Source: Sphingopyxis sp. 2PD (GTDB taxonomy: Bacteria; Pseudomonadota; Alphaproteobacteria; Sphingomonadales; Sphingomonadaceae). Taken from it: 64,000 nucleotides of DNA. The DNA lies in assembly GCF_005503695.1 (NCBI RefSeq), contig NZ_SCMU01000004.1:62001-126000 (forward strand), in the 5' to 3' direction. Position 1 is the stretch's first letter, and each line of letters starts with the position of its first letter. This document shows positions 19,761 to 62,614 of the stretch, in pieces. A model generated the notes under the pieces. That model did not search any database, was not told the DNA's origin, and saw only the letters and a program-made list of their open reading frames with translations. The position numbers were made by a program, and so were the translations under genes.

Positions 19761-21305
19761 ATGAGCGAAAGCGCCGCCCAACCCGCCGTCACCAGCCGCA
19801 GCGTCGCGCGCGGGCTGGGTACCACGGTGCTCGCGCGGCTAGGCGCAGTCGTCGAGATCGTCGCACAGCCGCTGTATGTGCTGATGTTCGGGCTCGCGGG
19901 CTATGGCCTGTATGCGGTGCTCTGGGCGGCGATCAACCTGCTCGAAAACATCTTCGACCTAGGGATGACCAGCGCGATGCAGCGCACGGTGCCACAATCG
20001 GCGAGCGACGCCGAAGCGGCCGCAGCGCTGCGCACTGCGATGATCTTTGGCGTAGGGCCATGCATTGTGGTCGCGGCGCTGATTGCGGTCTTCGCCGCCG
20101 ACCTTGGACCGTTGCTCAATGTTGCCGCAAAGGACCGCGAACTCGTCACCCCGGCGATCCAGATTTTCGTCTGGGCGCTGCCGCTCTGGGCCTTTGTCGA
20201 GATTGCGACGTCGGCGCTGCGCGCGCGGATGGTGTTCGGCGCCGAAATCCGGCTGCGGATCGTTTGGGAACAGGTGCTGCGACTGGTGTTTGCCGGGATG
20301 TTTTTTGCGGGCGGGCTCGGGCTGAAAGGTTTGTTCATCGCGCACCTCTGCTCGCTGGCGATCACAGCGATCCTGTGCGTGCGGCTGCTTTCCCGACATT
20401 ACGACCTGAAGGGGTTCTGGCGCGGCCCCCGCGGCACCGAAACCGCGCGCAATACCTTTTGGGCCGGGCTGTCGATCCTGCCGTCGAACATCATCGCGCG
20501 CCTGTTCGGGGACGCCCCTGCACTGATCCTGAACCTGTTGCTGCCGGGCGCGGCGGGCGCCGCGGCGGCGGGGCTGTTCACCATCGCGCGCAAGCTGTCG
20601 AGCGTCGTCCAGCTCGTTCGCATCGCCTTCGTCTATGTGATGGCGCCGCTCGCGGCCAGCGCCGAGCGCCGGGATCGGGCGCAAGTCGCTGATATTTACG
20701 CCTATGCGACCCGGCTGATCTCGGCGATCGCGCTGCCGCTCGCCGCCGTCCTCGCAGCGGGCAGCGCGTCGCTGCTCAGCCTGTTCGGCGCGCAAGCCCA
20801 GTCGGCACAGGCCGCACTGGTCATCCTGCTGTTCGCACGCGCCGCCGAAGCGGTGCTCGGCATTTCGTCGCCGGTGTTGCAGGTGGTCTCGGCCTTTCGC
20901 CACCAACTGACCGCGAGCATCTTTGGCGTCGGCGTCGCGATCGGCGCCGGGTGGCTGATCGTCGATCATATGGATGCGCTGACCGGGGTCACGCTCGCCA
21001 CGTCGATCGGTTTGGTGGTGATGGCGGGTATTCCGACCCTGCAACTGGCCATGAACGAAAAGCTGCACCCGTTCGACCATCAGTTCCCGGTCGTTGCGAT
21101 GCGCGGCATGGCGCTGACCTTGGTCGCGGGCGCCGCGGCGCTGCTCGCCGACCGATTGCCCGATCCGGTTGCGCTGCCGCTGATCGTGATCATCGCGCTG
21201 GGATCGATATGGGCCGCGATCCGTTTCGCGCTGCCCTATGCCGACCGCGCCTCGCTCGGCAAAGCGGGACGGAAATTGCGGCTGATCGAGGATGAGACCC
21301 CATGA
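19761..21305 (+). CDS. Oligosaccharide flippase-type membrane protein (MOP superfamily)
   Basis: Polytopic membrane protein of 514 residues with about 12-14 predicted helices, in the pattern of Wzx-like polysaccharide transporters. It begins TTVLARLGAVVEIVAQPLYV and has a long conserved cytoplasmic segment in the first half. It probably flips a lipid-linked glycan or lipid across the inner membrane. It opens a five-gene operon in which each start overlaps the previous stop, here ATGA with the HAD gene. Its neighbours handle CDP-alcohols and polyol-phosphate transfer, so the cargo may be a phospho-alcohol-modified glycan. Confidence 0.86.
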   Translation: MSESAAQPAVTSRSVARGLGTTVLARLGAVVEIVAQPLYVLMFGLAGYGLYAVLWAAINLLENIFDLGMTSAMQRTVPQSASDAEAAAALRTAMIFGVGPCIVVAALIAVFAADLGPLLNVAAKDRELVTPAIQIFVWALPLWAFVEIATSALRARMVFGAEIRLRIVWEQVLRLVFAGMFFAGGLGLKGLFIAHLCSLAITAILCVRLLSRHYDLKGFWRGPRGTETARNTFWAGLSILPSNIIARLFGDAPALILNLLLPGAAGAAAAGLFTIARKLSSVVQLVRIAFVYVMAPLAASAERRDRAQVADIYAYATRLISAIALPLAAVLAAGSASLLSLFGAQAQSAQAALVILLFARAAEAVLGISSPVLQVVSAFRHQLTASIFGVGVAIGAGWLIVDHMDALTGVTLATSIGLVVMAGIPTLQLAMNEKLHPFDHQFPVVAMRGMALTLVAGAAALLADRLPDPVALPLIVIIALGSIWAAIRFALPYADRASLGKAGRKLRLIEDETP

Positions 21306-22012
21306 CCGGCTCCCCCGCGCGCATCGCCATTTACGATCTTGACCGCACCGTGCTGCGCAAGCCGACCTTCACCCTGTTCCTCTTGTGGGCGGCGGCGCGC
21401 GAGGCGCCGTGGCGCCTGTTGCTGCTCCCGCTGCTCGCCGCGCTGATGATCGGTTACGCGCTGCGCCTTTACGGTCGCGACCGGTTCAAGCCCGCCGCCA
21501 TCCACCTGATGCTCGGATCGCATTTGACACCCGCGCGCGCAGCGCGGCTTGCTACCCGTTTTGCCACCTGGCGCGTTCCGCGCGATGTGCCGCCGGGTGC
21601 CCGAGCCTGCATCGCGCGCGATCGGGCCGAGGGCTACCAACTGCTGATGGCGACCGCGGCGCCCGAATTTTACGCGGGCGCGATTGCCGACGCGCTGAAC
21701 TTCGACGCGATCGTCGCCTCGCGCCACCAGCGCGACGCCGACGGCAACTGGCTGCCCGCACTCGACGGCCCCAATTGCTACGGCGCCGAAAAGGCGCGGC
21801 GGGTCGCCGAATGGATCGAAGCCCATGCGGCTGGCGCAACGCATATTCGCGCCTATTCCGACCATGTCAGCGACGCGCCGACCTTTGCCCTCGCGAACGA
21901 AGCGTGGCTGGTCGGGCGCGGCGAAAAATTTGTCCGGCGGGCGGCGCGGCACGGCTGGCAGGTAGCCGACTTTGAAGACGAGGCGGCGGGCGCCGCTGCC
22001 AAGGTGCGGTAA
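21302..22012 (+). CDS. HAD-IB family phosphatase
   Basis: Haloacid-dehalogenase-fold hydrolase of 236 residues, phosphoserine-phosphatase-like subfamily IB. It shows motif I YDLDRT (nucleophile Asp12, Asp14), motif II MATAA (Thr118), motif III Lys164 in GAEKARR and motif IV YSDHVSD (Asp187, Asp191). An amphipathic to hydrophobic segment (33-56) after motif I may contact the membrane. Within the cluster it could dephosphorylate a polyol phosphate or lipid phosphate; the substrate is not evident. It overlaps both neighbours (ATGA before, TAATG after). Confidence 0.9.
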   Translation: MTGSPARIAIYDLDRTVLRKPTFTLFLLWAAAREAPWRLLLLPLLAALMIGYALRLYGRDRFKPAAIHLMLGSHLTPARAARLATRFATWRVPRDVPPGARACIARDRAEGYQLLMATAAPEFYAGAIADALNFDAIVASRHQRDADGNWLPALDGPNCYGAEKARRVAEWIEAHAAGATHIRAYSDHVSDAPTFALANEAWLVGRGEKFVRRAARHGWQVADFEDEAAGAAAKVR

Positions 22013-23151
22013 TGCGCACCCTGTTCCTGTTCATCGGCGAACCGCACCAGATTTTCCACGCGCTGCCGATCGCCGCCGAAATGGCGGCGGCGGGCAGCGA
22101 TGTCGAGGTCGCGGTCGCCAGCGCCGGACATCTGCCGGTGGTCGAACAGGTGATGGCGGCCTATCCCGGCTTTTCGCCCCGGATCAGGCTGCTCGGGCAG
22201 CGCGGGATCAGCCACTGGCTGCGCGCGCGCGCGATCATTCGCCATCCGCGCCTGCCGATCCTGTTCGGCGCGCTGCGCTTTTTGCGCCAGTTCGACGCGA
22301 TCGTCGTACCCGAACGGACGACGACCGCGATCCGCCATTTTTTGCCCCGCCGCACCCGGCTGATCTTTACCCCGCACGGCGCGGGCGACCGCGCGATCAT
22401 GCTCGACCCGCGCGACCGCCATTTCGATTTTGTGCTGGTCGCGGGCGAAAAGAGCGAACAGCGCCTGCTCGATGCCGGAACGATCCGACCGGGCCATTAC
22501 GCACTCAACGGTTATGTGAAGCTCGACCTGATGACGCGTCTGGACAAGACGCGCGCGCGGCTGTTCGACAATGATCGCCCGACCGTTCTCTATGCGCCGC
22601 ATTTCCATCGCGGGCTGTCGTCGTGGGATCGCTTCGGGCGCGACATCATCGACTGGTTCGCGGCGCAGAACCGGTATAACCTGGTCGTTGCGCCGCACAT
22701 CCGCCTGTTTGCCGAGGCCAGCGATGGCGATCGCGCGGCGATCAAGACGCTGGCTATTCCGGGCAAGATTCTGATCGATCTGGATTCCGACCGGCTGTTC
22801 GACATGAGCTACACCAGCGGCTCCGACCTCTATCTGGGCGATGTCAGCAGCCAGGTTTACGAATTTCTGGCAACCCCGCGCCCTTGCCTGTTTCTCAACG
22901 CCCATGACGCCCAATGGGTCGGTGATCCCGACTATCTGTTCTGGACGCTGGGCGACGTCATCGACGATGTGGCAGACCTTCCCAATGCGCTCGATCAGGC
23001 GGGCGCGCGTCATTCGCGCTATATCGACGCGCAGCGCGAGCGGCTGGCCGAATCGATCGGCGGCGATCCGGCGGGCGCGGCGCGGCGTGGGGCCGAAGCC
23101 ATTGCGCGCTTCCTTGCAAAGGATGCTGCACAGGATAAGAGCGGCGGATGA
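22012..23151 (+). CDS. CDP-glycerol glycerophosphotransferase-like protein
   Basis: A 379-residue protein of the TagB/TagF-like fold, a GT-B enzyme that transfers alditol phosphate from a CDP-activated donor. The diagnostic blocks are FTPHGAGDRA (His122 region) and SDLYLGDVSSQVYEFL (Asp277, Ser279, Ser280). APHFH at 195-199 and APHIRL at 227-232 are further matches to the fold. In Gram-positive bacteria such enzymes build teichoic acids. In a Gram-negative a phosphate-linked decoration of a surface glycan is the more likely product. It overlaps the next gene as ATGA. Confidence 0.8.
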   Translation: MRTLFLFIGEPHQIFHALPIAAEMAAAGSDVEVAVASAGHLPVVEQVMAAYPGFSPRIRLLGQRGISHWLRARAIIRHPRLPILFGALRFLRQFDAIVVPERTTTAIRHFLPRRTRLIFTPHGAGDRAIMLDPRDRHFDFVLVAGEKSEQRLLDAGTIRPGHYALNGYVKLDLMTRLDKTRARLFDNDRPTVLYAPHFHRGLSSWDRFGRDIIDWFAAQNRYNLVVAPHIRLFAEASDGDRAAIKTLAIPGKILIDLDSDRLFDMSYTSGSDLYLGDVSSQVYEFLATPRPCLFLNAHDAQWVGDPDYLFWTLGDVIDDVADLPNALDQAGARHSRYIDAQRERLAESIGGDPAGAARRGAEAIARFLAKDAAQDKSGG

Positions 23152-24251
23152 GCGAACCAACGACCCTGCCCGCGCTGGCACTGATCGGCGACAATTCGAC
23201 CCTGCTGTGGGGAATGACCAACGCCGAGCGGCTGCGCCGGATGGCGCGTGCCGAAGGATTGCTCGACACGCCGCCTGCGTCGGGGGCGCGGCTGTTCGTC
23301 AACCTCGACTATGTGTTCGACCCGGTGTGGCTGCGGCATATCGTGACGCTGCCCGGCACCGTCGTGATGGACGGCGACGCGCTGGTGATGGCGCACCTTA
23401 CCGGCGGCCTCGGTCCCGATGACATCGCGGCGCATCGGGATGCGCTCACGATCATCGATTACCGCGACAATCCGCAAATCTACAACCGCCAGCTGCGCAA
23501 GCTCGATACGCCGTTCATCCAGCGGCTGACCCCCGAAACGCGGCGCGAAATCGAGCGCAAAAGCTATTTCGGAGCCTATAAGGGCGTCACCGACGCGCTG
23601 ACCAAATATCTCTGGCCCGAACTCGCGCTGTGGCTGACGCGGATCGCCGCCAGCATCGGCATGACGCCGAATATGGTCACCGCGATCGGTGCGGCGCTGT
23701 GCGTTTATGCGACCTATTTGTTTGCCCATGGCCAATATTGGACCGGGATGCTCGCCGCTTTCATCTTCATGGTACTCGACACCGTCGATGGCAAGCTGGC
23801 GCGCTGCACGATCACCTCGTCGAAATGGGGCAATGTTGCCGATCATGGCGTCGATCTGATCCACCCGCCCTTCTGGTGGTATTTCTGGGGCGTCGGGCTT
23901 GGCGCCTGGGGGCTCGCGCTGTCCGACCAGACCTTCCTGCTGGTGATGATCGCACTCGTCGCGGGCTATGTGCTGCAACGCGTGATCGAGGGGATGTTCA
24001 TCAAGGACTTTGGGATGGACGTCCATGTCTGGCGCCGGTTCGACAGCCAGTTCCGCCTGATCACCGCGCGGCGCAACCCGAATATCGCGATCCTGTTCTT
24101 CGCCACGCTTGCCGGGCGCCCCGACATCGGGCTGATCGCCGTCGCCTGGTGGACGGTCATCTCGCTGATCGTTCATGCTGTGCAACTGGCGCAGGCCTAT
24201 GCCCAGCGGCGCGCGGGGCGCCCGATTGTCAGCTGGATGGAGGAAGCATGA
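23148..24251 (+). CDS. CDP-alcohol phosphotransferase with N-terminal nucleotidyltransferase-like domain
   Basis: A 367-residue fusion-type protein. Residues 1-140 are soluble and resemble the degenerate sugar-nucleotidyltransferase half of inositol-phosphate cytidylyltransferase/DIPP-synthase proteins (WGMTNAERLRR, then VVMDGDALV). Residues 145-355 are a membrane CDP-alcohol phosphatidyltransferase domain with the complete signature: Asp211, Asp214, Gly215, Ala218, Arg219, Gly228, Asp232 and Asp236. It should join a CDP-activated alcohol to a second alcohol or lipid. The CDP donor may be made by the cytidylyltransferase-like gene at 24664-25428. It overlaps the HIT gene as ATGA. Confidence 0.85.
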   Translation: MSEPTTLPALALIGDNSTLLWGMTNAERLRRMARAEGLLDTPPASGARLFVNLDYVFDPVWLRHIVTLPGTVVMDGDALVMAHLTGGLGPDDIAAHRDALTIIDYRDNPQIYNRQLRKLDTPFIQRLTPETRREIERKSYFGAYKGVTDALTKYLWPELALWLTRIAASIGMTPNMVTAIGAALCVYATYLFAHGQYWTGMLAAFIFMVLDTVDGKLARCTITSSKWGNVADHGVDLIHPPFWWYFWGVGLGAWGLALSDQTFLLVMIALVAGYVLQRVIEGMFIKDFGMDVHVWRRFDSQFRLITARRNPNIAILFFATLAGRPDIGLIAVAWWTVISLIVHAVQLAQAYAQRRAGRPIVSWMEEA

Positions 24252-24676
24252 ACGACACCATCGCGAAATTCGGCCACCCCGCGACGCTGATCGCTGAATA
24301 TGACCATTGGGTCGTATTACTGCGCCCCGCCCAACCGACCCTCGGCGCGCTGGTGCTCGCCGCGAAGTCGGATGCGACGGCGTTCGGCGATTTGCCCGCG
24401 GCGGCGCACGCAGAACTCAAGGTCGCGACGTCGGCGATCGAGGCCGCGCTGAGTCAGGCGGTCGGCTATACCCGGATCAATTATCTGATGCTGATGATGG
24501 TCGATCCGCACGTCCATTTCCACGTCCTGCCGCGCTATGACGGCGAACGGATGGGCGCGGGCCTTGCGGTCACCGATACCGGTTGGCCGGGGCCGCCCGA
24601 TCTGGCGCAGGCGGTCAAGCTGGGCGATGCACAGATCGCCGCGCTCACCGGCTGGCTCAAACCCTATTTCGCGTAA
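24248..24676 (+). CDS. HIT family protein
   Basis: A histidine-triad nucleotide hydrolase or transferase of 142 residues with HVHFHVLPR (His88, His90, His92). HIT proteins split or transfer nucleoside monophosphates. In an operon of CDP-alcohol enzymes it might recycle or clear nucleotide-linked intermediates. This is the last gene of the five-gene plus-strand operon, starting in an ATGA overlap. Its 3' end overlaps by 13 bases with the 3' end of the convergent nucleotidyltransferase gene. Confidence 0.9.
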   Translation: MNDTIAKFGHPATLIAEYDHWVVLLRPAQPTLGALVLAAKSDATAFGDLPAAAHAELKVATSAIEAALSQAVGYTRINYLMLMMVDPHVHFHVLPRYDGERMGAGLAVTDTGWPGPPDLAQAVKLGDAQIAALTGWLKPYFA

Positions 24677-25428
24677 CGGCCTTCCGCGGCCCATTTCGCG
24701 GTAAGCGCATCGGCGGCTTCGACGTCCTGCGGGAAGTCGACTTCCTGCCAGTCCAGCCCCTCGATCGACACGGTGCCGACGCGGTTGCCCTTGGCGATCA
24801 CGTCGATCGCGCGCAGATACCAGCGCTCGACGCCTTCGGGGGTGCGCATCATCTGGTCGATCTGGCTGCGGAAAATTGACGGCCCGTCGCCGACGAATGC
24901 CAGCATGCCGATCGATTCGGCATTGGTATCGGGGGGCAGCAGCCGCTTGCCGATATGGTGTAGGCGGCCGTCGGCGTCGCGGTTCACCTTCATATCGTCG
25001 TCGTCATAGTCGGCCTTGACGTCGACGGTGACGGTGATCGGCTCGTGCGCGCCCGCGATAAGTTTGGCGACGATCTCTTCCGAAACGATGGTGTCGCCGT
25101 TGAGGATGATGAAATCGCGGTCCATCTCCTCGCGCGCGATCCAGCAGGTGCCAAGATTGTCGGCAACCTGAAAGAAGGGGTTGAACAGGGTGCGGATGCG
25201 TACCCCGGTGTCGCGGTACAGCTGCAATGCATGATCCTCGACACGCTCGGTACGAAAGCCCGTGACGACGACGATGTCCTTGATCCCGTTCGCGGCCAGC
25301 GCCGCGACCTGCCACCCGATCAGCGTGCGACCGTTGAGGTCGATCAGGCATTTGGGAATGTCGCGGGTCAGCGGCAACAGGCGCGAACCCTGCCCGGCCG
25401 ACAGGATGATGGCTTTTTCGATGGTCAT
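24664..25428 (-). CDS. Nucleotidyltransferase, LicC/phosphocholine cytidylyltransferase-like
   Basis: GT-A fold nucleotidyltransferase of 254 residues. It has the N-terminal nucleotide loop SAGQGSRLLPLT (10-21), Lys26 in IPKCL, and LNGDTI for metal binding. This resembles enzymes that activate phosphocholine, inositol phosphate or sugar phosphates as CDP or NDP derivatives. The neighbouring CDP-alcohol phosphotransferase suggests that the product is a CDP-alcohol. ATG 25428 overlaps the upstream gene's stop as ATGA; a longer in-frame start at 25515 lies inside that gene. Confidence 0.88.
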   Translation of the reverse strand: MTIEKAIILSAGQGSRLLPLTRDIPKCLIDLNGRTLIGWQVAALAANGIKDIVVVTGFRTERVEDHALQLYRDTGVRIRTLFNPFFQVADNLGTCWIAREEMDRDFIILNGDTIVSEEIVAKLIAGAHEPITVTVDVKADYDDDDMKVNRDADGRLHHIGKRLLPPDTNAESIGMLAFVGDGPSIFRSQIDQMMRTPEGVERWYLRAIDVIAKGNRVGTVSIEGLDWQEVDFPQDVEAADALTAKWAAEGRYAK

Positions 25429-26210
25429 AGCGGCTGCCCTATAGCGGCTTGCCGCCGCGCGGCAAAGATTCGCTCGATCAGCACAATATCGGCAGGCTTG
25501 TCTGCATCGATGCACGCCTCAGCCTCGGACATCGGCACGATCCTGGCCTTGAGCCCGAAGCGCCGTCCGGCGCGCGCGACCCCCTGCTGGATGGTGAACA
25601 GCCGCAGCAACGCGCCGATCAGCAGCCACGGGCCGAACGCCGCGATGATCTTCAGTCCCTTTTTGCGGTCGCGTTCGATCCGTCCCCAGAAATCGAGCAG
25701 CGGCAGCACCCGCCGCCCGCGCAGGTAGAATAGGTTCGCGCCTGACCACCAGCCGCCACGAAACTTCAGCCAGGTGCGTTTCGATTCCGGGTAGCGCGCG
25801 AGCAGCACCGCGCGTTCGACCATCGCCACTGCAACATCGCTATCCTCGGCGCCGCGCAGGAATTCGGCGATCATCGTCGGCGTCAGCAACACATTGTCGG
25901 CGGTCGTCACCAGCAGCGGTTCTTCACCGGCGGGGAGCGCCGCGGCGAGCGAGCTGCTGATCCCCTGCCCCGAGTCCGCAAAATGCAGGTCGGCGAAGCC
26001 TGTCAATTCTGGCTCGGCCGCCAGTTCGGCGCTGTTCTGCGCCAGGATCGTGATCGGCCCGACCAGCGGAGACGCGCGCAGCGCGCGCACGACATGGACC
26101 AGCATCGCGTCGCCCGTGATCGGCAACAATGCCTTGGTCGATACGCCGCTCCCGGTCAGCAGCGGGTCGGGACCGGGACGGCTGCCCGCGAGGATGATCG
26201 CGGGGATCAT
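25425..26210 (-). CDS. MobA-like NTP transferase domain protein
   Basis: A second GT-A nucleotidyltransferase-like protein, 261 residues, beginning AIILAGSRPG with Lys26 in STKALLP and a TADNVLL motif in place of the usual acid-containing metal loop. The central part is rich in Arg and Trp and has a hydrophobic stretch (FGPWLLIGALLRLF) that may touch the membrane. The substrate is unknown. It is coupled at both ends by ATGA overlaps, to the esterase upstream and the cytidylyltransferase-like gene downstream. Confidence 0.85.
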   Translation of the reverse strand: MIPAIILAGSRPGPDPLLTGSGVSTKALLPITGDAMLVHVVRALRASPLVGPITILAQNSAELAAEPELTGFADLHFADSGQGISSSLAAALPAGEEPLLVTTADNVLLTPTMIAEFLRGAEDSDVAVAMVERAVLLARYPESKRTWLKFRGGWWSGANLFYLRGRRVLPLLDFWGRIERDRKKGLKIIAAFGPWLLIGALLRLFTIQQGVARAGRRFGLKARIVPMSEAEACIDADKPADIVLIERIFAARRQAAIGQPL

Positions 26211-27160
26211 TGCGCGAGCGGCGCCGGAGCGATGCGACGCGCCGTCGCACCGCGCAGGAAATCGGTCATATCGGGCAGGACCGGCCCCTTGTACGCCAGC
26301 GGTTTGGTCAGCGCCATGACGAGGTCGTTGTGACTGAGCCCGTCATATTCGCGCAGCTTCGCCGAACCGCCGACCTTGTGCATCGCGGCAGCCAGTCGCT
26401 GGCTGTTGCGCACCCGCACCATCGTGTCGGCGGTGCCGTGCCCCAGCCACAGCGGCGGCGCGTCGCCGCGCACGAAACGGATCGGCTGCGTCCGTTCGAT
26501 GGGGCGAATGTCGCCCATCGCCACATCGGCCCGGCCACCCTTTTCGAAAGGCGCAAAATCATAGGGGCCGGCGAGCGCCGCGACGCCGCGGATCACCGAC
26601 GTATCGCTGCCCGCCGCGCGCAGCCATTGCGGGTCGAGCGCCAGCATCACGGCATTATAGGCGCCCGCCGAATGGCCCGCCAGTGCGATGCGATCGGGAT
26701 CGCCGCCATAATTGCCGATATGCGCGTCGGTCCACGCCACCGCGGCGGCGCTGTCGTGCAGGAAGTCGGGCCAATGCCCCTCGGGGACGATGCGGTAATC
26801 GGGGATGACAACGACAAAGCCCCGTTTGGCAAAGGCGCGACCGGCAAAACCATAGTCATCGCGCGCGCCGCTGTACCAGCCGCCGCCATAGAGGAAGATG
26901 AGGACCGGCAGCCTGTCGGTCTTTTTGGTTCCCGTCGGCACCCAGATATTGAGCTTGTTGCGCGCGCCTGCGCCATAGGGCTGCCCCGCCACCTGCAACG
27001 TCGCGCCGTCACCGTCGCCCAGCAGCCGGTCGCCGAGGTTGAGCGACTTTGCCCCGCCCGCGACGATCACCCGCGCCGCGCCGCCGAACAACAGCACCAC
27101 CAGCACGGCCACCAACAGATATTTGATCAATCGCCGTCCTTTGGAAATCGGTGCTGCCAT
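26207..27160 (-). CDS. Membrane-anchored alpha/beta hydrolase (esterase, HSL/BD-FAE-like)
   Basis: Esterase of 317 residues with an N-terminal membrane anchor (about 12-34), so the catalytic domain probably faces the periplasm. The oxyanion loop reads YGGGW (the HGGG equivalent) at about 91-95 and the nucleophile is Ser164 in GHSAG. His in LSHNDLV completes the triad. I take ATG 27160, with GTG 27166 six bases upstream as alternative. It heads the three-gene minus-strand operon that converges on the flippase operon, and may acylate or deacylate the same product. Confidence 0.87.
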   Translation of the reverse strand: MAAPISKGRRLIKYLLVAVLVVLLFGGAARVIVAGGAKSLNLGDRLLGDGDGATLQVAGQPYGAGARNKLNIWVPTGTKKTDRLPVLIFLYGGGWYSGARDDYGFAGRAFAKRGFVVVIPDYRIVPEGHWPDFLHDSAAAVAWTDAHIGNYGGDPDRIALAGHSAGAYNAVMLALDPQWLRAAGSDTSVIRGVAALAGPYDFAPFEKGGRADVAMGDIRPIERTQPIRFVRGDAPPLWLGHGTADTMVRVRNSQRLAAAMHKVGGSAKLREYDGLSHNDLVMALTKPLAYKGPVLPDMTDFLRGATARRIAPAPLAQ

Positions 27161-27288
27161 CGTCACGCCCTATCGCGCGGCGAAGCGGGGAACAAGCGGC
27201 GGACGAACCGCGCATCTGTGATCAGGGAGGCGCCGGGAGGACGAAATTCAGTGGCCACCTTTTTCGTCCTCATGCGTAGGACAGCGCG

Positions 27289-28119
27289 ATGACCAGTCCC
27301 TTCACTCGCCCCGCCCTGATCTGCAACACCCAAAGCGGCAGCCATGACGAGGCTGTCCGCGACCAGATCGCCGAACTGTGCCGCACGCATGGCGCGCCGC
27401 TGGTGGCGACCTTTGCGTTGCCCGACGGCGACATTCCCGATGCCGCCGCGCTGAAGGCGCAAGGCATCGACCTGCTGCTGGTGTGGACCGGCGACGGCAC
27501 GATCAACGCCGCGGCGACCAAGGCAACCGGATGGGACGGCGCGGTCCTGGTGCTACCCGGCGGGACACTCAACCTGCTGTCCAAGGAATTGCACGGTGAT
27601 CGCCCGGTAGCCGACATTCTGGCCGACGCTTTGAAAGGCGAGGTCCGGCGCAGCGCGATCCCGACGGTGGTGTCGGACGCCCGGACTGCTTTCATCACTA
27701 TCATCGCCGGACCCGCGACGCGCTGGGCCGAGGTGCGCGAGACGATGCGGCAGGATGGCTTGATCGAAGCAAGCCGCGCTGCTCCCGACGCGCTCGACGA
27801 GATGATGAATGCGCCGGGCGTGCGGATCGGCGCCGATGGCAAAACCTATCCCGCCGTCATCCTGACCCCGACCACCGCGGGGATCCGCGCCGATGGCATA
27901 TTGACCGATGGCACCGGCGACGTGCTGCGCCACGGCCTCGCATGGCTGGGCGGCGACTTTCGCGAGGGGCCGAGCGAACCGATCGCAACCTGCGATACGA
28001 TCGTGCTGGAAAGCGACAAGCCGATCAGTCTGGAGTTTGACGGCGAGCTGAATGAGGTAGCATCCCCAGCAATCTTCCGCCTTGGCACCAGCGCGGTCGA
28101 TTTCATCGCCACGGCATGA
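27289..28119 (+). CDS. Diacylglycerol/lipid kinase family protein
   Basis: A 276-residue protein with the lipid-kinase (DAGK catalytic) fold. The nucleotide-binding signature is TGDGTINAA at 67-75, with Thr in place of the first Gly of the usual GGDGT. LPGGTLNLLSKEL follows about 20 residues later, as in YegS-like kinases. It may phosphorylate diacylglycerol or another lipid alcohol. The start is ATG 27289, and the stop overlaps the metallophosphoesterase start (ATGA), so a kinase and a phosphoesterase are translationally coupled. Confidence 0.87.
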   Translation: MTSPFTRPALICNTQSGSHDEAVRDQIAELCRTHGAPLVATFALPDGDIPDAAALKAQGIDLLLVWTGDGTINAAATKATGWDGAVLVLPGGTLNLLSKELHGDRPVADILADALKGEVRRSAIPTVVSDARTAFITIIAGPATRWAEVRETMRQDGLIEASRAAPDALDEMMNAPGVRIGADGKTYPAVILTPTTAGIRADGILTDGTGDVLRHGLAWLGGDFREGPSEPIATCDTIVLESDKPISLEFDGELNEVASPAIFRLGTSAVDFIATA

Positions 28120-28964
28120 CGCGACTGTTCCATATCAGCGACCTGCATTTCGGGCTGGAGGATCGCACCGCGCTCGACTGGTTCCGCGATTGTGTGCGCC
28201 GCGAACAGCCCGATGCGGTGCTGATTACCGGCGACCTCACGATGCGCGCGCGGAGCCATGAATTTGCCGCCGCATGCGACTGGATCGAGGCGCTTGATGT
28301 GCCGGTGACGGTTGAGGTCGGCAACCATGACCTGCCCTATTTCAATCCGCTCGCGCGCTTCTTCTGGCCCTATCGCCGGATCCGGCGGATCGAGCGACTG
28401 GTCGAGCGCGAGCTGAACCTCGCTAGGGTCGCCGTCGTGCCGCTCAAAACCACCGCGCGCGCGCAGTGGCGGCTCGACTGGTCGAAAGGCTGGGTGACGC
28501 GCGATGCGCTCGCCAAGACGCTGGCGGCGATCGACGCACTGCCGGGCGGCACCACCGCGCTGGTCACCGCGCATCATCCCCTCGTCGAAGCCGGGACGAA
28601 AGGCCGCGCGCTCACCCGCGGCGGCGCGCGCGCGCTCGAAGCACTCGCAGCGCGCGGCGTCGCGGCGGTGCTGACCGGCCATGTCCATGACGCATTCGAT
28701 CTGGTTACCCCGACCGCCGCGGGACCAATCCGCATGATCGGCGCGGGGACCCTGTCGCAACGTATCCGGTCGACCCCGCCCAGCTTCAACGAGCTCCGCA
28801 TCCGGGATGGCGAAGTCGCGGTTCGGGTCCGCAACAGCGCCGCGGTGCCGACCCCCGACATGCTCATCGACGCGATCCCGCCCGACGCCCTGCCCCCGCG
28901 CGCACCGGGCGAGCCGGTGGCACCGATCCACGCCGTCCCTCCGGTCGATCCACCGGTGCATTGA
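28116..28964 (+). CDS. Calcineurin-like metallophosphoesterase
   Basis: A 282-residue metallophosphoesterase with the full set of metal motifs: ISDLHFG (Asp9, His11), ITGDLT, GNHD, TAHHP and GHVH. No signal peptide is visible, so it should act in the cytosol. The basic FWPYRRIRRIERLVERELN segment after GNHD could bind phospholipid or membrane. The C-terminal 30 residues are Pro-rich. It is coupled to the lipid kinase by an ATGA overlap. Family members hydrolyse cyclic nucleotides, UDP-diacylglucosamine or other phosphodiesters; none can be chosen here. Confidence 0.9.
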   Translation: MTRLFHISDLHFGLEDRTALDWFRDCVRREQPDAVLITGDLTMRARSHEFAAACDWIEALDVPVTVEVGNHDLPYFNPLARFFWPYRRIRRIERLVERELNLARVAVVPLKTTARAQWRLDWSKGWVTRDALAKTLAAIDALPGGTTALVTAHHPLVEAGTKGRALTRGGARALEALAARGVAAVLTGHVHDAFDLVTPTAAGPIRMIGAGTLSQRIRSTPPSFNELRIRDGEVAVRVRNSAAVPTPDMLIDAIPPDALPPRAPGEPVAPIHAVPPVDPPVH

Positions 28965-31842: not shown

Positions 31843-34800
31843 TCAGAAGTGGAAGGTCACCGAACCGCGATAGCTCTGGTTCGACACATCCTTGCGTCCG
31901 ATCGTCGTGTCGGCGCCGATCGACAGGTCGACATTGCCCGTCTTGAACGTGACGCCGCCGCCGACTTCGAACCAGTCCTTGTCGGTCCCGGCGAGGCCGA
32001 AGATCGCATTGGGTCCGGGGCCACCGACGAATGTCGCACCGAACGATGCCGGGGCGTCTTCGAATTCATGGACATAGTCGGCGCTGAGGTGCGGCTGGAA
32101 GCTGCTGCCGCGCTTGCCCGACAGCGCGAGGCCGAGGCGTGCCTGCAGGCTGTTGAAGCTCGACCGGTCGAGCTGTAGCGCGGGCCCGCCGCCATTTTCC
32201 TTGATGTCGGAAAAGCCGATATGGCTCGCCCGCAGCGCAGCCCGCGGCCCGAATTCGACCGAACCCAGGTCAAAATTCTTGGCCAGGCTGACTTCGCCGG
32301 TGAAGACCAGCGCGCTGTCTTCGCCAGTCAGCGTATAGGGCGTGCCAACCAGATCGGCGACCCGCGTCGTACGCGAATCGAACGCACCGGCGCTAACCTG
32401 CGTCGCGAGTTCGAGCCCGCCGCCCAGCATCGCCTTGCCGTAAAGCGTACCCTGGTACAGGCTACCGCTGGCCTTTTGGCCCGCAATCGGGGTGGTGCCG
32501 TCGACGTCGGTGTAGCTGAGTGCGAAGCCGATCACGCTACCTTCATCAAGCGCCTTTTCGATGCCGCCCGCCAGGTAGAAGCCGTCGAACTGGTCGCGGC
32601 CCCCGCCCGGCAGCGCGCTCGCCATCGGGCGGCTGTCGCCGTCGAGATAGCCGCCAGCCAGGAAGGCGCTGGTGTCGTCGGGCAAGCGGCCCTGCTGCAC
32701 CGTCACCGCATCGCTGTCCGACCGCACCGCCATCGTGTCGGCGCCGACTGCGGTCATGTTGAGCTGCGCGAGTTGCACCGGACGGCCGATCATCGACAGG
32801 GTACCGCCCATGTCGCCGTCGTCGAGCTGGAGCAGGCGATCGCGAGTGAAGCGCGACATATTGTCGACCGCCACCGTCGCGAGCGAACCGCGCAGCGTTT
32901 CGGTGCGCGGTGCCCAGCTTTCGAGTGTCGCGCGGATCGTCGCGGCGTTCTGGAGGTCGAGCGGACCATAGACGCTGGCAAGCCCGGCGGTGCCGCGCGA
33001 CTGGTCGAGCAGCTGAGCATAGGCGCCCTGCACAGCGGTGGCGGCGACGACGTCGCGGTAGAGACCGGCCTGGATTTCGACCGACACGCTGTTCGGACCA
33101 TAGGTCAGACGCGGGGTCAGGATCGCCGACAGCGCATTGGCCGAACTGAAGGTGCCCGTCACCCCGCCCGCGGCGGTCAGGAAGGTGTAGCGATTGCCTG
33201 CCGTGACCTGCGTCCCCGCCACCGGCGAGAAGCTCACCGCGCCGCCCAGCGTCGCCGATCCGGCCGACGTGCCGTTCGCGACGACCGCGAGCACGTCCGA
33301 CGTGCCGTTGGGGCCAAAGTTGATGAATAGGTTGCTGCCCGAGGACAGCACCAGATTGCCGCCCACGGTCAACGTGCCGATCGTCGTCGGGGTGCCCGGT
33401 GCGATCTGGCCGAGGACGCTGGTCAGGAAGGGCGCGTTGATCCGGCCCGACCCCATCAGGCCGCCACCGAACAGGCTATAGTCACCGACCGAGCTCAGCG
33501 TGCCGTTGACCGTCACCATCCCCGCGAGCTGGTTGACGTTGATCAGCGACGACAGCGATGCGCCCGAGTCGATCTGCAGCGCCGCGCCGGCGGTGCCGAT
33601 CGTCAGCCGGTCGATCGTGATATTCGCGCCCGACAGCGTCGTGAGCCCGGTCGCGCTGAGCGTCACGTCGAAATAGCGCGGCGGCGTCCCCGTGGTGCGG
33701 ACCGGTTCGACATTGTTCGGAACAAAGTTGGTGGCGCCGGGCAGACCATTGGCGAGCGTCGCGGCGGGCAACGGGGTCGCCGCTGCCTGTGCCTCCGGCT
33801 GCGCACCGGGCATCAACGCATCGCGCGAGGCGGTCGCGCCGCCCGTAATGTCGGCGATCGAGGCCGAACCGGCGTTGTCGCCCGAGGTACCGATCGGCCG
33901 GTTTTCGACGACCTCAACCCCGGTGCGGGTGTCGAGGCAATCGCTGACCCCGCCGCTCTGGAAACAGATTTGGCCGAAATCGCCGCTGGTGCCGGTCTTC
34001 TGTTCGCCGGTCAGCGCCGGGATGCCGTTGACGAGCTGCCCGCCCGATTCGATCATGTACGACGGGTCGATCGTCGACACCCAATGATTGGGGTCGGTCC
34101 ACGACCCGTTGCCCGCCTTCGCCGACACATAATGATAGGGATTGTTCGCTGCGATCCAGTCCCAATAGAGATAGAGCGGCTGGTAAAAGGACACCGTGCC
34201 ATAACCATTGGCCGGCTGTCCGGTGAAGAAGCGGGTATAGCCGCCCGAAAGCACCCCGATGACGACCTGGCGTGCAAAGGCGTTCTGCAGGATCAGCGGT
34301 CCACCCGAATCGCCCTGCGACGTGATACCCTCCAGCGAGGCACCGTTCGGATTGGTGCGCGCGTTGTCGCGGAACGCGTTGAAATCGAAGGGGCTCGCGC
34401 CGGTCATCCCGCGCCGCGGATCATCGAAGTCGAGGAAATAGAGATTCTGGGTCAGACCGTTGGGCGCGCCGCCGAACAGAAAGCCTTCGAAGGTCTGCAA
34501 GTCGGTCAGTGCGCCGAGGATATTTTCGGCCGCGCGGCGGCGGAAGTCGCTGCCCGAGGCGCCGCTGGTGCCGGTGCCATTGTTGCCATAACCGACGATG
34601 CCGACGTCATAGCCGGTCCCCGAAGCACCGATGGTGCCGGTGTTGGTGAGCGGCGAGAACAGCAGCGCCCATGTCGGGATATTCGCCGCCGGGGTATCCA
34701 GCGAAGCGACCGCGACGTCACCGTAAAGGAAGCTGCGCGCCGCGGGTTCGAGCGACAGCGGGTTATAGGCCAGCCAGTTCGAATTGTAGAACGCCTGCGC

Positions 34801-35346
34801 GGTGTTGGTCTGATATTTGCCGGCACCACCGGCGCCGCCGAGCAGCCAGCGCACCAGTTCGTCGGTCTGCCCCGCCGCGTTCGCGCGGGTGTTGGTTTCA
34901 AAACCGAAGCCGATCGCGGTTCCGCCCGAATTGGCGCCATAAGCCGTCGCGGCGCGGGTGTTCACGCAATGCGCCGCCAGCAGCACGGTGCGCGGATTGA
35001 TCAGCGTGCCGGTGCACAGGCCGACAAAGCCGCCGCCATTGTCGATGATCATCTGGCCGACGCCGGTGATGTTCACCGGGTCACGCGCCGTCGTCGGGGT
35101 CCCGGGATTGGCGATCAGGATTTCGGGTTCGGGGGTGATCTGCTGGATCGTCGGCCCAGGGGTTACCGGGACCAGATTGGCCTGCGGTTCGGGTATCGTG
35201 ACCGTGATATGGCCTTCGCCGCCAGTCGGCGCGATGCCCGCATCAGCCTCGGCGAGCGCGGGTGCCGCCTGCAGCAGGCCCGCGACGCAGACCGACGTGA
35301 GCAACGCTCCGCGGCGCATGCGCCGCGAATCAAAACAAAAATTCAT
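31843..35346 (-). CDS. Autotransporter serine protease
   Basis: A 1167-residue secreted protein with three parts. A signal peptide ends near residue 32 (APALA before EAD). A trypsin-fold protease domain (about 85-400) has the complete triad: His126 in LLAAHC, Asp210 in YGDVAVA and Ser347 in QGDSGGP. A beta-helix-type passenger (about 560-770) and an outer-membrane autotransporter barrel (about 890-1167) end in the expected terminal Phe of GSVTFHF. The Pro-rich segment after the signal may be a linker. A second Met at codon 10 would shorten the n-region. The gene is monocistronic with its own terminator. Confidence 0.93.
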   Translation of the reverse strand: MNFCFDSRRMRRGALLTSVCVAGLLQAAPALAEADAGIAPTGGEGHITVTIPEPQANLVPVTPGPTIQQITPEPEILIANPGTPTTARDPVNITGVGQMIIDNGGGFVGLCTGTLINPRTVLLAAHCVNTRAATAYGANSGGTAIGFGFETNTRANAAGQTDELVRWLLGGAGGAGKYQTNTAQAFYNSNWLAYNPLSLEPAARSFLYGDVAVASLDTPAANIPTWALLFSPLTNTGTIGASGTGYDVGIVGYGNNGTGTSGASGSDFRRRAAENILGALTDLQTFEGFLFGGAPNGLTQNLYFLDFDDPRRGMTGASPFDFNAFRDNARTNPNGASLEGITSQGDSGGPLILQNAFARQVVIGVLSGGYTRFFTGQPANGYGTVSFYQPLYLYWDWIAANNPYHYVSAKAGNGSWTDPNHWVSTIDPSYMIESGGQLVNGIPALTGEQKTGTSGDFGQICFQSGGVSDCLDTRTGVEVVENRPIGTSGDNAGSASIADITGGATASRDALMPGAQPEAQAAATPLPAATLANGLPGATNFVPNNVEPVRTTGTPPRYFDVTLSATGLTTLSGANITIDRLTIGTAGAALQIDSGASLSSLINVNQLAGMVTVNGTLSSVGDYSLFGGGLMGSGRINAPFLTSVLGQIAPGTPTTIGTLTVGGNLVLSSGSNLFINFGPNGTSDVLAVVANGTSAGSATLGGAVSFSPVAGTQVTAGNRYTFLTAAGGVTGTFSSANALSAILTPRLTYGPNSVSVEIQAGLYRDVVAATAVQGAYAQLLDQSRGTAGLASVYGPLDLQNAATIRATLESWAPRTETLRGSLATVAVDNMSRFTRDRLLQLDDGDMGGTLSMIGRPVQLAQLNMTAVGADTMAVRSDSDAVTVQQGRLPDDTSAFLAGGYLDGDSRPMASALPGGGRDQFDGFYLAGGIEKALDEGSVIGFALSYTDVDGTTPIAGQKASGSLYQGTLYGKAMLGGGLELATQVSAGAFDSRTTRVADLVGTPYTLTGEDSALVFTGEVSLAKNFDLGSVEFGPRAALRASHIGFSDIKENGGGPALQLDRSSFNSLQARLGLALSGKRGSSFQPHLSADYVHEFEDAPASFGATFVGGPGPNAIFGLAGTDKDWFEVGGGVTFKTGNVDLSIGADTTIGRKDVSNQSYRGSVTFHF

Positions 35347-60923: not shown

Positions 60924-62579
60924 ATGACCGCGCCGCAGACCATTACGGGGGCGCGCGCTGCCCTCTATCTTCGCGTCTCGACCGCGCGGCAAGCCGAGCA
61001 TGATGTGTCGATCCCCGATCAGCGGCGGCAGGGCGAAGGCTGGTGCGCATCGCGCGGGCTCAAGGTCGTGGACACCTATATCGAGTCCGGCGCCTCGGCG
61101 ACCAATGATCGCCGCCCGGAGTTCCAAAGACTAATTGAGGCCGGGACATCAAAACCGGCGCCGTTCGACCTTGTGGTGGTCCACAGCTTCTCCCGCTTCT
61201 TCCGCGATCATTTCGAGCTGGAGTTCTATATCCGCAAACTCGCCAAGAATGGGGTGAAGCTCGTCTCCATTACGCAGGAAATGGGCGACGATCCCATGCA
61301 CGTTATGATGCGCCAGATTATGGCGCTGTTCGACGAGTATCAGTCGAAGGAGACTGCTAAACACGTCCTGCGCGCGATGCGCGAGAATGCGCGGCAAGGC
61401 TTCTGGAATGGATCGCTTCCGCCGATCGGCTACCGCGTCGTTGCTGCCGAGCAGCGCGGCGCGAAGGTCAAGAAGCGGTTGGAGATAGACCCCTTCCATG
61501 CCGAGACCGTGCGCTCGATATTTCGGCTTGCCCTAGCGGGCGACGGTGTATCGGGTCCGATGGGGGTCAAGGCAATCGCCGCGTGGCTCAACGAGAGGTC
61601 CATTCGCACTCGCGACGGCGGGCGCTGGGGTCTCGGAGCCGTCCACCAGATACTGACCCGCTCGACCTATACCGGGCGCCACGAGTTCAACCGCCGGGGC
61701 AAGGATAGGAAGCTTAAACCGAAGTCAGAGGCGGTAGTGGTCGATGTGCCCCCGATCATCGATCTGGAGATCTATGAGGCGGTGCAGGCACACTTGCAGG
61801 CCCGCAACCCCAAGAAGATGCCGCCTCGCGTCGTGAGCGGCCCCACGCTCCTTACCGGCCTCATTCATTGCGCGAAGTGTAGCGGGGCCATGACCATACG
61901 CACCGGCAAAGGTGGCCGCTATCGCTATTACGCCTGTTCGACCAAGGCGCGGCAGGGAGCGACCGCCTGCGCTGGCATGACGGTGCCAATGGCGAAGCTG
62001 GACGATCTGGTTGCAAAACATTTGGAGGACCGGCTTCTTCAACCCGACCGGCTGGAAGTCATTCTGTCAGCCGTTCTGGATCGGCGGCAAGAACAGGCGA
62101 CCCGCAAGCGCGCCCATGTGGCCGATCTCAACAAGCGAGCCACAGAGGCCGACCTGCGGCTAAAGCGGCTCTTCGACGCAATCGAGAACGGCATTGCCGA
62201 TGTGAACGATTCTGACCTCAAAGAGCGCATCGCAACGCTCAAGGCGACGCGCGATCAGGCTAAGGCCGACGCGGAGCGCGTGACCGCCTCGCTCGGTGCT
62301 GCGGGCCAAAAGGCGGTCCAGCCCGAAATGCTGGCGAAGTTCGCGAGCGCCGCGCGCCAAAGAATGAGAATTGAGGGTGGCGGCTATCGCCGCGATCATG
62401 TCCGCGCGCTTGCGCAGCGGGTTGAAGTCGATGTTGGAGAGGTTCGGATTCTCGGCTCGAAAAGCAATCTGCTGCAAGCGCTGATCGCGGGGGCCGCCGA
62501 AACAAAGCCGGGCGCAGTGCCCAGCTTTGTTCCGAAGTGGTGCGCCCGGCAGGATTCGAACCTGCGACCACCCGCTTAG
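60924..62579 (+). CDS. Large serine recombinase
   Basis: A 551-residue large serine recombinase. The resolvase domain (about 10-160) has the nucleophile Ser19 in LYLRVSTARQ. The recombinase domain (about 185-290), a zinc ribbon with CAKC ... YYAC ... ACAG cysteines (about 315-350) and a coiled-coil region (about 390-460) follow in family order. ATG 60924 follows GGAG; TTG 60912 would add four residues. The last dozen codons (ending CARQDSNLRPPA) are antisense to the tRNA-Arg gene and so probably not ancestral. It should integrate or excise the island in one strand-exchange step without host factors. Confidence 0.93.
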   Translation: MTAPQTITGARAALYLRVSTARQAEHDVSIPDQRRQGEGWCASRGLKVVDTYIESGASATNDRRPEFQRLIEAGTSKPAPFDLVVVHSFSRFFRDHFELEFYIRKLAKNGVKLVSITQEMGDDPMHVMMRQIMALFDEYQSKETAKHVLRAMRENARQGFWNGSLPPIGYRVVAAEQRGAKVKKRLEIDPFHAETVRSIFRLALAGDGVSGPMGVKAIAAWLNERSIRTRDGGRWGLGAVHQILTRSTYTGRHEFNRRGKDRKLKPKSEAVVVDVPPIIDLEIYEAVQAHLQARNPKKMPPRVVSGPTLLTGLIHCAKCSGAMTIRTGKGGRYRYYACSTKARQGATACAGMTVPMAKLDDLVAKHLEDRLLQPDRLEVILSAVLDRRQEQATRKRAHVADLNKRATEADLRLKRLFDAIENGIADVNDSDLKERIATLKATRDQAKADAERVTASLGAAGQKAVQPEMLAKFASAARQRMRIEGGGYRRDHVRALAQRVEVDVGEVRILGSKSNLLQALIAGAAETKPGAVPSFVPKWCARQDSNLRPPA

Positions 62580-62614
62580 AAGGCGGGTGCTCTATCCAGC
62601 TGAGCTACGGGCGC
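62538..62614 (-). tRNA. tRNA-Arg, anticodon TCT
   Basis: Cloverleaf of 74 bases plus encoded CCA (77). The acceptor stem is GCGCCCG/CGGGCGC, the anticodon stem CCCGC/GCGGG and the loop CTTCTAA, giving anticodon TCT (Arg, AGA). The T loop TTCGAAT is standard. The 3' end faces the serine recombinase, whose last 42 bases lie within the tRNA on the opposite strand. The tRNA is intact. Confidence 0.95.

Follow-up and report, generated by a model that had tools for sequence, protein, structure and literature searches.

Gene content of the locus

The window analysed here, a stretch of 64,000 nucleotides of Sphingopyxis sp. 2PD, corresponds to C44:62001-126000 of an assembly of 3.58 Mb in 53 contigs (G000) and carries two converging operons. 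These probably supply the head-group steps of a sphingolipid pathway of the ceramide phosphoglycerate (CPG/CPG2) type, in a variant form that would also include a TagF-like transferase and a phosphatase of the HAD family. The plus-strand operon (19761-24676) contains, in this order, the genes for a flippase, the HAD protein, the TagF-like transferase (GPT, 22012-23151), a CDP-alcohol phosphotransferase (CAP, 23148-24251), and a HIT protein. It is met tail to tail by a minus-strand operon encoding a LicC-like protein, a MobA-like protein, and an esterase. An earlier note had described this arrangement, which was confirmed with its genes and overlaps: inside each operon, neighbouring genes overlap by 1-4 bases, which suggests translational coupling.

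The first plus-strand gene (19761-21305) encodes a MOP-type flippase (Pfam Polysacc_synt_3, 44.3 bits) that likely turns a lipid over in the inner membrane. The HAD-IB type phosphatase (21302-22012; Pfam HAD, 106.1 bits; TIGR01490, 93.4 bits, slightly below its cut-off of 98.3) is predicted to remove a terminal phosphate, and the HIT-family protein (24248-24676) matches PF01230 with 22.2 bits. On the minus strand, a LicC-like cytidylyltransferase (24664-25428) lies beside the MobA-like nucleotidyltransferase (25425-26210), which matches NTP_transf_3 with 53.3 bits and whose best NCBIfam model is CofC (E 2e-5, with a score far below the cut-off). The remaining gene (26207-27166) encodes an alpha/beta hydrolase, the esterase, with an N-terminal hydrophobic stretch (BD-FAE, 104.8 bits), considered accessory; its cluster has nine members across the 60 loci compared, the window included.

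CAP matches PF01066 with 41.5 bits against a cut-off of 22. CDP-alcohol phosphotransferases carry the signature D-x2-DG-x2-AR-x8-G-x3-D-x3-D, which in CAP is formed by D211, D214, G215, A218, R219, G228, D232, and D236; it is nearly invariant across 17 aligned rows, R219 being the sole signature residue that varies. The nucleotidyltransferase-like N-terminal half proposed earlier for this protein is predicted to adopt a nucleotidyltransferase fold. Compared with Archaeoglobus AF2299 and IPCT-DIPPS, which are CDP-alcohol phosphotransferases with a nucleotidyltransferase domain, CAP shows 13-14% identity and stands in a bacterial gene context with ceramide genes. Among named sequences, the best relatives of CAP and of the TagF-like protein come from Sphingopyxis.

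Longer relatives of CAP adjoin an inositol-phosphate synthase at L088, L090, L091, and L092, accompanied in L090-L092 by a gene of LicC type and a further CDP-alcohol enzyme; these loci probably represent a separate inositol system. Elsewhere (L055, L056, L059-L064, L084-L087), relatives of CAP, the CofC-like protein, and HAD adjoin genes that, judged by eye, resemble those of a lipid transporter of Mla type.

The named comparison for GPT is with TagF, TarL, and Cps3D, polymerases that use CDP-glycerol or CDP-ribitol (Pfam Glyphos_transf, PF04464). Because the window protein reaches only 13.5 bits against this model, below the curated 22.1, it is called TagF-like and is not filed as a Glyphos_transf member. 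At the family level, PF04464 matches with E <= 0.1 were obtained for 38 of the 44 members, the best of them at 2.6e-6, and the family profile matches Cps3D (E 7.5e-4) and TarL (E 4.3e-3). The predicted GPT model is of GT-B type (pLDDT 91.3). Its fold was considered as proof of the donor and rejected because UDP-GlcNAc 2-epimerases were tied or ranked higher.

Correspondence with the ceramide phosphoglycerate pathway

In Caulobacter crescentus, six genes contribute to the conversion of ceramide to CPG and CPG2, according to the excerpts of PMC11324152 on which our account of that pathway is based: CC_1160 (CpgB, a ceramide kinase), CC_1161 (CpgC, with a CDP-diacylglycerol-synthase-type domain), CC_1159 (CpgA, a CDP-alcohol-type enzyme), CC_1158 (a phosphoesterase that contributes and is non-essential), CC_1153 (CofC-like), and CC_1152 (later named CpgD). 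With loss of CC_1153, CPG2 disappears and CPG is kept. The region CC_1152-CC_1168 also contains spt, acpR, cerR, aasR, cerS, second LptC/F/G copies, and a potential flippase, CC_1166. CpgD converts CTP and phosphoglycerate to CDP-glycerate, and CPG2 partly supports the survival of Caulobacter without lipopolysaccharide (LPS) (excerpts of PMC12275187); CpgD structures are presented in a preprint (PMC13228409, also used in excerpt).

The Cpg names used here were assigned from gene order together with descriptions and residues given in the literature, and the gene names in relatives' loci from sequence and order. A single 20-kb locus of an alphaproteobacterium outside the order (L191, genome G479) holds relatives of CpgD, the CofC-like protein, cerS, LptG, LptF, and the phosphoesterase, together with relatives of CpgA, CpgC, spt, acpR, cerR, and aasR and a flippase. 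The window LicC-like protein is 53% identical to the CpgD of this ceramide locus, CAP is 43% identical to the CpgA-position protein (37% to its paralogue beside LptG), and the MobA-like protein is 38% identical to the CofC-like protein, while the HIT protein, which the earlier note had also placed in the operon, has a counterpart (54%) inside the CPG locus of G468. These matches suggest that the nucleotidyltransferase pair pointed out in that note is of CpgD and CC_1153 type. In the phylogenetic tree, CAP forms a clade with the CpgA-position proteins with support of 94/97, slightly under the tree's own mark of 95/80. Outside the order, too, genes for a TagF-like protein, a flippase, and a HIT protein occur in a CPG locus (L194, L195).

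At CPG loci outside the order, a second CDP-alcohol paralogue lies between LptG and a desaturase-like gene and forms a separate tree clade (L185:8127-9338, L186:9975-11189, L189, L190, L191:5028-6335).

Residues named for CpgD in excerpts of the CPG papers, PMC13228409 among them, are Arg16, Lys26, Asp112, Asn90, Thr93, Asn110, Gly111, Met147, Lys161, Ser170, and Trp201. Their counterparts in the window LicC-like protein, in a register set by local motifs without the CpgD sequence itself, are R16, K26, D112, N91, T94, N110, G111, M146, K161, S172, and W203, respectively, and the protein is predicted to make CDP-glycerate. In a subtype designated LicC-b (L043, L051), serine occupies the Asn90 position and histidine the Trp201 position; because of these replacements, its substrate may differ from that of the CpgD-like enzyme. 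The CpgD of C. crescentus was also sought by scanning named genomes with an alignment of CAP, which returned 80 loci, none titled Caulobacter; the published cpgD primer was absent from the relatives' loci examined, and none of 360 proteins starts or ends as the primers predict.

Further pathway genes lie on the same contig as the window. They comprise relatives of acpR (C44:887-1123), spt (C44:1234-2436, 518.5 bits), LptF2 (C44:7061-8281), LptG2 (C44:8283-9383), and cerS (C44:10860-12029), a CpgC-like gene (C44:4567-5427; CpgC profile in G000, E 3.7e-79), and a CpgB-like kinase (C44:5438-6412; CpgB profile, 157.5 bits), the CpgB and CpgC profiles having been built from relatives' loci and not from Caulobacter. 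The cluster begins at C44:81761, and the ceramide/CPG genes are about 70-81 kb away from it. A Tam41-type identity was considered for CpgC and dropped: no Pfam match was obtained at the thresholds used, and the best PDB match was a nucleotidyltransferase-domain protein (E 0.53). A DUF2141 protein adjoins the CpgB-like gene (L210:6420-6926) and is also found near CAP, CpgB, and CpgC relatives in related loci (e.g. L044:5691-6227), with a cluster spanning eight loci; it may be an unrecognised pathway partner.

Like C. crescentus, G000 combines within a single genome CpgD-, CofC-, CpgA-, CpgB-, and CpgC-like genes, spt, acpR, cerS, LptF2/LptG2, and a gene of flippase type. It differs in that the genes are split over two contig sites, in having TagF-like and HAD genes that are unnamed in the Caulobacter scheme as excerpted, and in its lack of an LpxC match, in a search whose controls recovered LpxC in E. 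coli, Caulobacter vibrioides, and others. The earlier note knew of no characterised pathway with this composition; this has to be revised, as the Caulobacter pathway includes counterparts of the LicC-like, MobA-like, and CDP-alcohol enzymes (excerpts of PMC11324152, PMC12275187, PMC13228409), although the TagF-like protein stays outside the Caulobacter model. CPG2 genes in Sphingomonadales are not new in themselves, since excerpts of PMC11324152 report orthologues in Sphingomonas wittichii, where they are dispersed among six regions. The present locus has a relative of teichoic polymerases beside a sphingolipid head-group pathway, which is not described in the excerpts of the three CPG reports. 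Among titles and abstract openings of the open-licence literature, no TagF-like protein was named for the CPG pathway, no paper was found joining CDP-alcohol phosphatidyltransferase, LicC, and alphaproteobacteria, and none joined three of the terms sphingolipid, CDP-glycerol, glycerophosphotransferase, and alphaproteobacteria.

Linkage and distribution in Sphingomonadales

The distribution of these genes was surveyed in 296 genomes of Sphingomonadales. CAP, counted as present at E < 1e-25 with weaker matches left uncounted, occurs in 62 of them and, in the genus of G000, in 9 of 16. Linkage was mapped for 50 of the 62 CAP genomes (53 loci, radius 8 kb; L068 by tblastn). Within this radius, CAP is accompanied by a MobA-like gene in 41 genomes, LicC-like in 33, HAD in 30, HIT in 28, a MOP-type flippase in 25, GPT in 20, and a CpgB-type kinase and a CpgC-type gene in 13 each; LicC is present beside CAP in 18 of the 20 genomes with GPT there. 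No partner was found at three loci (L058, L071, L072); each of these is an additional copy, and the same genome has another CAP locus at which partners are present. Conserved linkage, on the absence of which the earlier note would have given up its reading, is present in the order.

The idea that HAD simply takes the place of the CC_1158 phosphoesterase was also considered and abandoned: across 144 CAP loci, HAD without the phosphoesterase was found within 9 kb at 34, the reverse at 12, both at 15, and neither at 83, so that the two do not cleanly exclude each other. Six loci for which the gene caller gave few or no genes (L068, L196, L197, L199, L201, L202) were left out of these counts.

CpgC and the CofC-like protein share a phylogenetic profile over the order. 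CpgC is present in 208 genomes and the CofC-like gene in 210 (E <= 1e-10), with an overlap of 208/208; the two extra CofC-like genomes are one with a match at 1.8e-11 and one that is 64% complete. CpgC occurs in 58 of the 62 CAP genomes versus 150 of the 234 others, and the four CAP genomes without it are also without the CofC-like gene. A LicC match at E <= 1e-25, searched for in the 62 CAP genomes, was obtained in 55: 45 at 5.2e-95 or better, nine weaker (7e-64 to 2e-54), and one (G023) split over two contigs. Two of the nine weaker matches were inspected (G056, G269) and belong to LicC-b.

Relatives of GPT were found in 100 genomes, 39 with CAP and 61 without; all 100 have a CofC-like gene, and none is among the two that have it without CpgC. 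The distance from GPT to the CofC-like gene could be taken from listed places in 98 of them, 59 being CAP-less; in these 59, GPT lies within 10 kb of the CofC-like gene in 45 and within 2 kb in 40. Among 14 CAP-less loci chosen mostly for GPT near the CofC-like gene (L214-L225, L230, L231), nine have a HAD match. One of them, from the same genus (L225 of G118), has kept the esterase, CofC-like, TagF-like, HAD, and phosphoesterase genes, and in the 20 kb retrieved for it no gene for CAP, a LicC-like protein, or HIT was seen; in G118, the two proposed modules part company. We read CpgC and the CofC-like enzyme as a core, to which CpgA with the CpgD-like enzyme (and HIT) and GPT with HAD are added as modules, both of which the window possesses. 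The profiles split the CPG pathway into CpgC + CofC-like (208/208), CpgA + CpgD-like + HIT, and TagF-like + CofC-like + HAD, and bring forward partners that have no assigned role: the TagF-like protein, HAD, HIT, and DUF2141.

Proposed pathway and alternative explanations

From the observed gene content, linkage, sequence families, predicted folds, and profiles, we infer every substrate and the order of steps in the following scheme. The CpgB-like kinase, encoded in the gene group at C44:0.9-12 kb, would phosphorylate ceramide, and CpgC would convert the phosphorylated ceramide to ceramide phosphoglycerate. The CpgD-like enzyme (24664-25428) would form CDP-glycerate from CTP and 2-phosphoglycerate, and the CpgA-like enzyme (23148-24251) would transfer phosphoglycerate from CDP-glycerate to ceramide phosphoglycerate, yielding CPG2. 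The CofC/MobA-like enzyme (25425-26210) may activate phosphoglycerate or a phospholipid intermediate, HAD would take off a terminal phosphate, and the TagF-like protein (22012-23151) could perform a further transfer from CDP-glycerate or another nucleotide-activated alcohol. The flippase (19761-21305) would then flip the lipid, which LptF2/LptG2 would export. The predicted product is a ceramide with two or more phosphoglycerates, and its head group may extend to a longer poly(phosphoglycerate).

The earlier note had proposed an envelope polymer built from a CDP-activated alcohol phosphate. The gene set for activation, transfer, and flipping in an alphaproteobacterium is upheld at the level of sequence, and the TagF-like protein could lengthen a head group; however, the most likely acceptor is ceramide phosphate, because the LicC-like and MobA-like proteins and the CDP-alcohol enzyme correspond to members of the CPG pathway. 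The earlier note had named the placement of its proteins in an already assigned lipid pathway as an outcome against its reading, and this partly applies. As G000 has no LpxC match, an anionic sphingolipid could plausibly stand in for lipid A there, and the locus bears on the open question of how Gram-negative bacteria that have no LPS maintain the negative charge of their outer leaflet. A bolder extension, which we put forward tentatively and consider rather unlikely, is that in sphingomonads without lipid A the outer membrane is covered by a ceramide-anchored poly(phosphoglycerate), a sphingolipid-based, Gram-negative counterpart of lipoteichoic acid, for which the CpgD-like enzyme would make CDP-glycerate, CpgA would start the chain with ceramide phosphoglycerate as acceptor, and the TagF-like protein would polymerise it, CpgA and the TagF-like protein being alternative transferases within a single pathway. 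In genomes without CpgA, the TagF-like, CofC-like, and HAD proteins would perform the extension alone.

Several observations weigh against the assignment to a CPG-type variant. The Cpg identities have their basis in gene order, descriptions, and residues; the CpgB-like match is weak in pairwise terms (26-29% identity), and aasR was not found in the stretches of G000 compared (the window and L210-L213). The survey counts are uncorrected for shared ancestry, and the LicC match at threshold is missing in seven of the 62 CAP genomes, all of genus g12. In a Foldseek search with the GPT model, UDP-GlcNAc 2-epimerases take rank 1 versus rank 36 for TagF, and in three CAP genomes (L226-L228) the GPT gene lies elsewhere, adjoining the LicC-b subtype. 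The CofC-like gene tracks CpgC even without CpgA, whereas loss of CC_1153 in Caulobacter is reported to remove CPG2 and spare CPG; this enzyme may either act with GPT in CpgA-less genomes or differ in role between groups.

The alternative that survives best, which we regard as possible but doubtful, is that the locus makes plain CPG2 as in Caulobacter, with the TagF-like and HAD proteins acting in the synthesis of a parallel product that shares the CofC-like enzyme, e.g. phospho-alcohol groups added to a glycosphingolipid or to a glycan of the cell surface. Caulobacter makes CPG2, and no TagF-like gene is named among its 17 genes in the excerpts of PMC11324152; moreover, the 61 GPT genomes without CAP and the pairing with LicC-b at L226-L228 fit a separate product. 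This explanation is opposed by the overlap of the TagF-like, CAP, and HIT genes within one operon of the window and by the presence of the CofC-like gene in every TagF-like genome, none of which belongs to those with the CofC-like gene but not CpgC.

A polymer of glycerol or ribitol phosphate, capsular or teichoic-like and unconnected with sphingolipids, would account for the co-occurrence of a nucleotidyltransferase and a MOP flippase with a TagF-like protein. It appears improbable, given that none of the eight cluster genes encodes a glycosyltransferase, that these genes are found within ceramide loci elsewhere, and that they adjoin relatives of CpgB and CpgC in 13 of the 50 mapped genomes. 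A pathway via CDP-inositol, leading to an inositol lipid or to di-inositol phosphate and considered because PIP synthase and DIPPS are among the named models nearest CAP, is very improbable and was set aside after the synthase search and the tree: G000 has no match to inositol-phosphate synthase, which 13 of the 62 CAP genomes have, and the CAP relatives linked to this synthase form a separate clade (four rows, 100/100).

Neighbouring genes and other features of the window

Adjoining the cluster on the plus strand, with uncertain membership, are genes for a DAG-kinase-like protein (27289-28119) and a metallophosphoesterase (28116-28964; spanning 27289-28964 together), the latter with 28% identity to the CC_1158-position protein of L191. 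The kinase was considered as the lipid kinase of the pathway and rejected, as the CpgB profile instead picks C44:5450-6409 and a weak match on C51. A candidate, tentative CerR-like reductase of the NAD-binding/epimerase family is encoded on the plus strand at 1148-2056 (34% identity to the CerR-position protein of L191).

An autotransporter with a trypsin-type domain is encoded at 31843-35346. A serine recombinase gene with Resolvase/Recombinase domains (60924-62579) ends within a tRNA-Arg(tct) gene on the opposite strand (62538-62614), and this region (60924-62614) looks like the border of a tRNA-integrated element.

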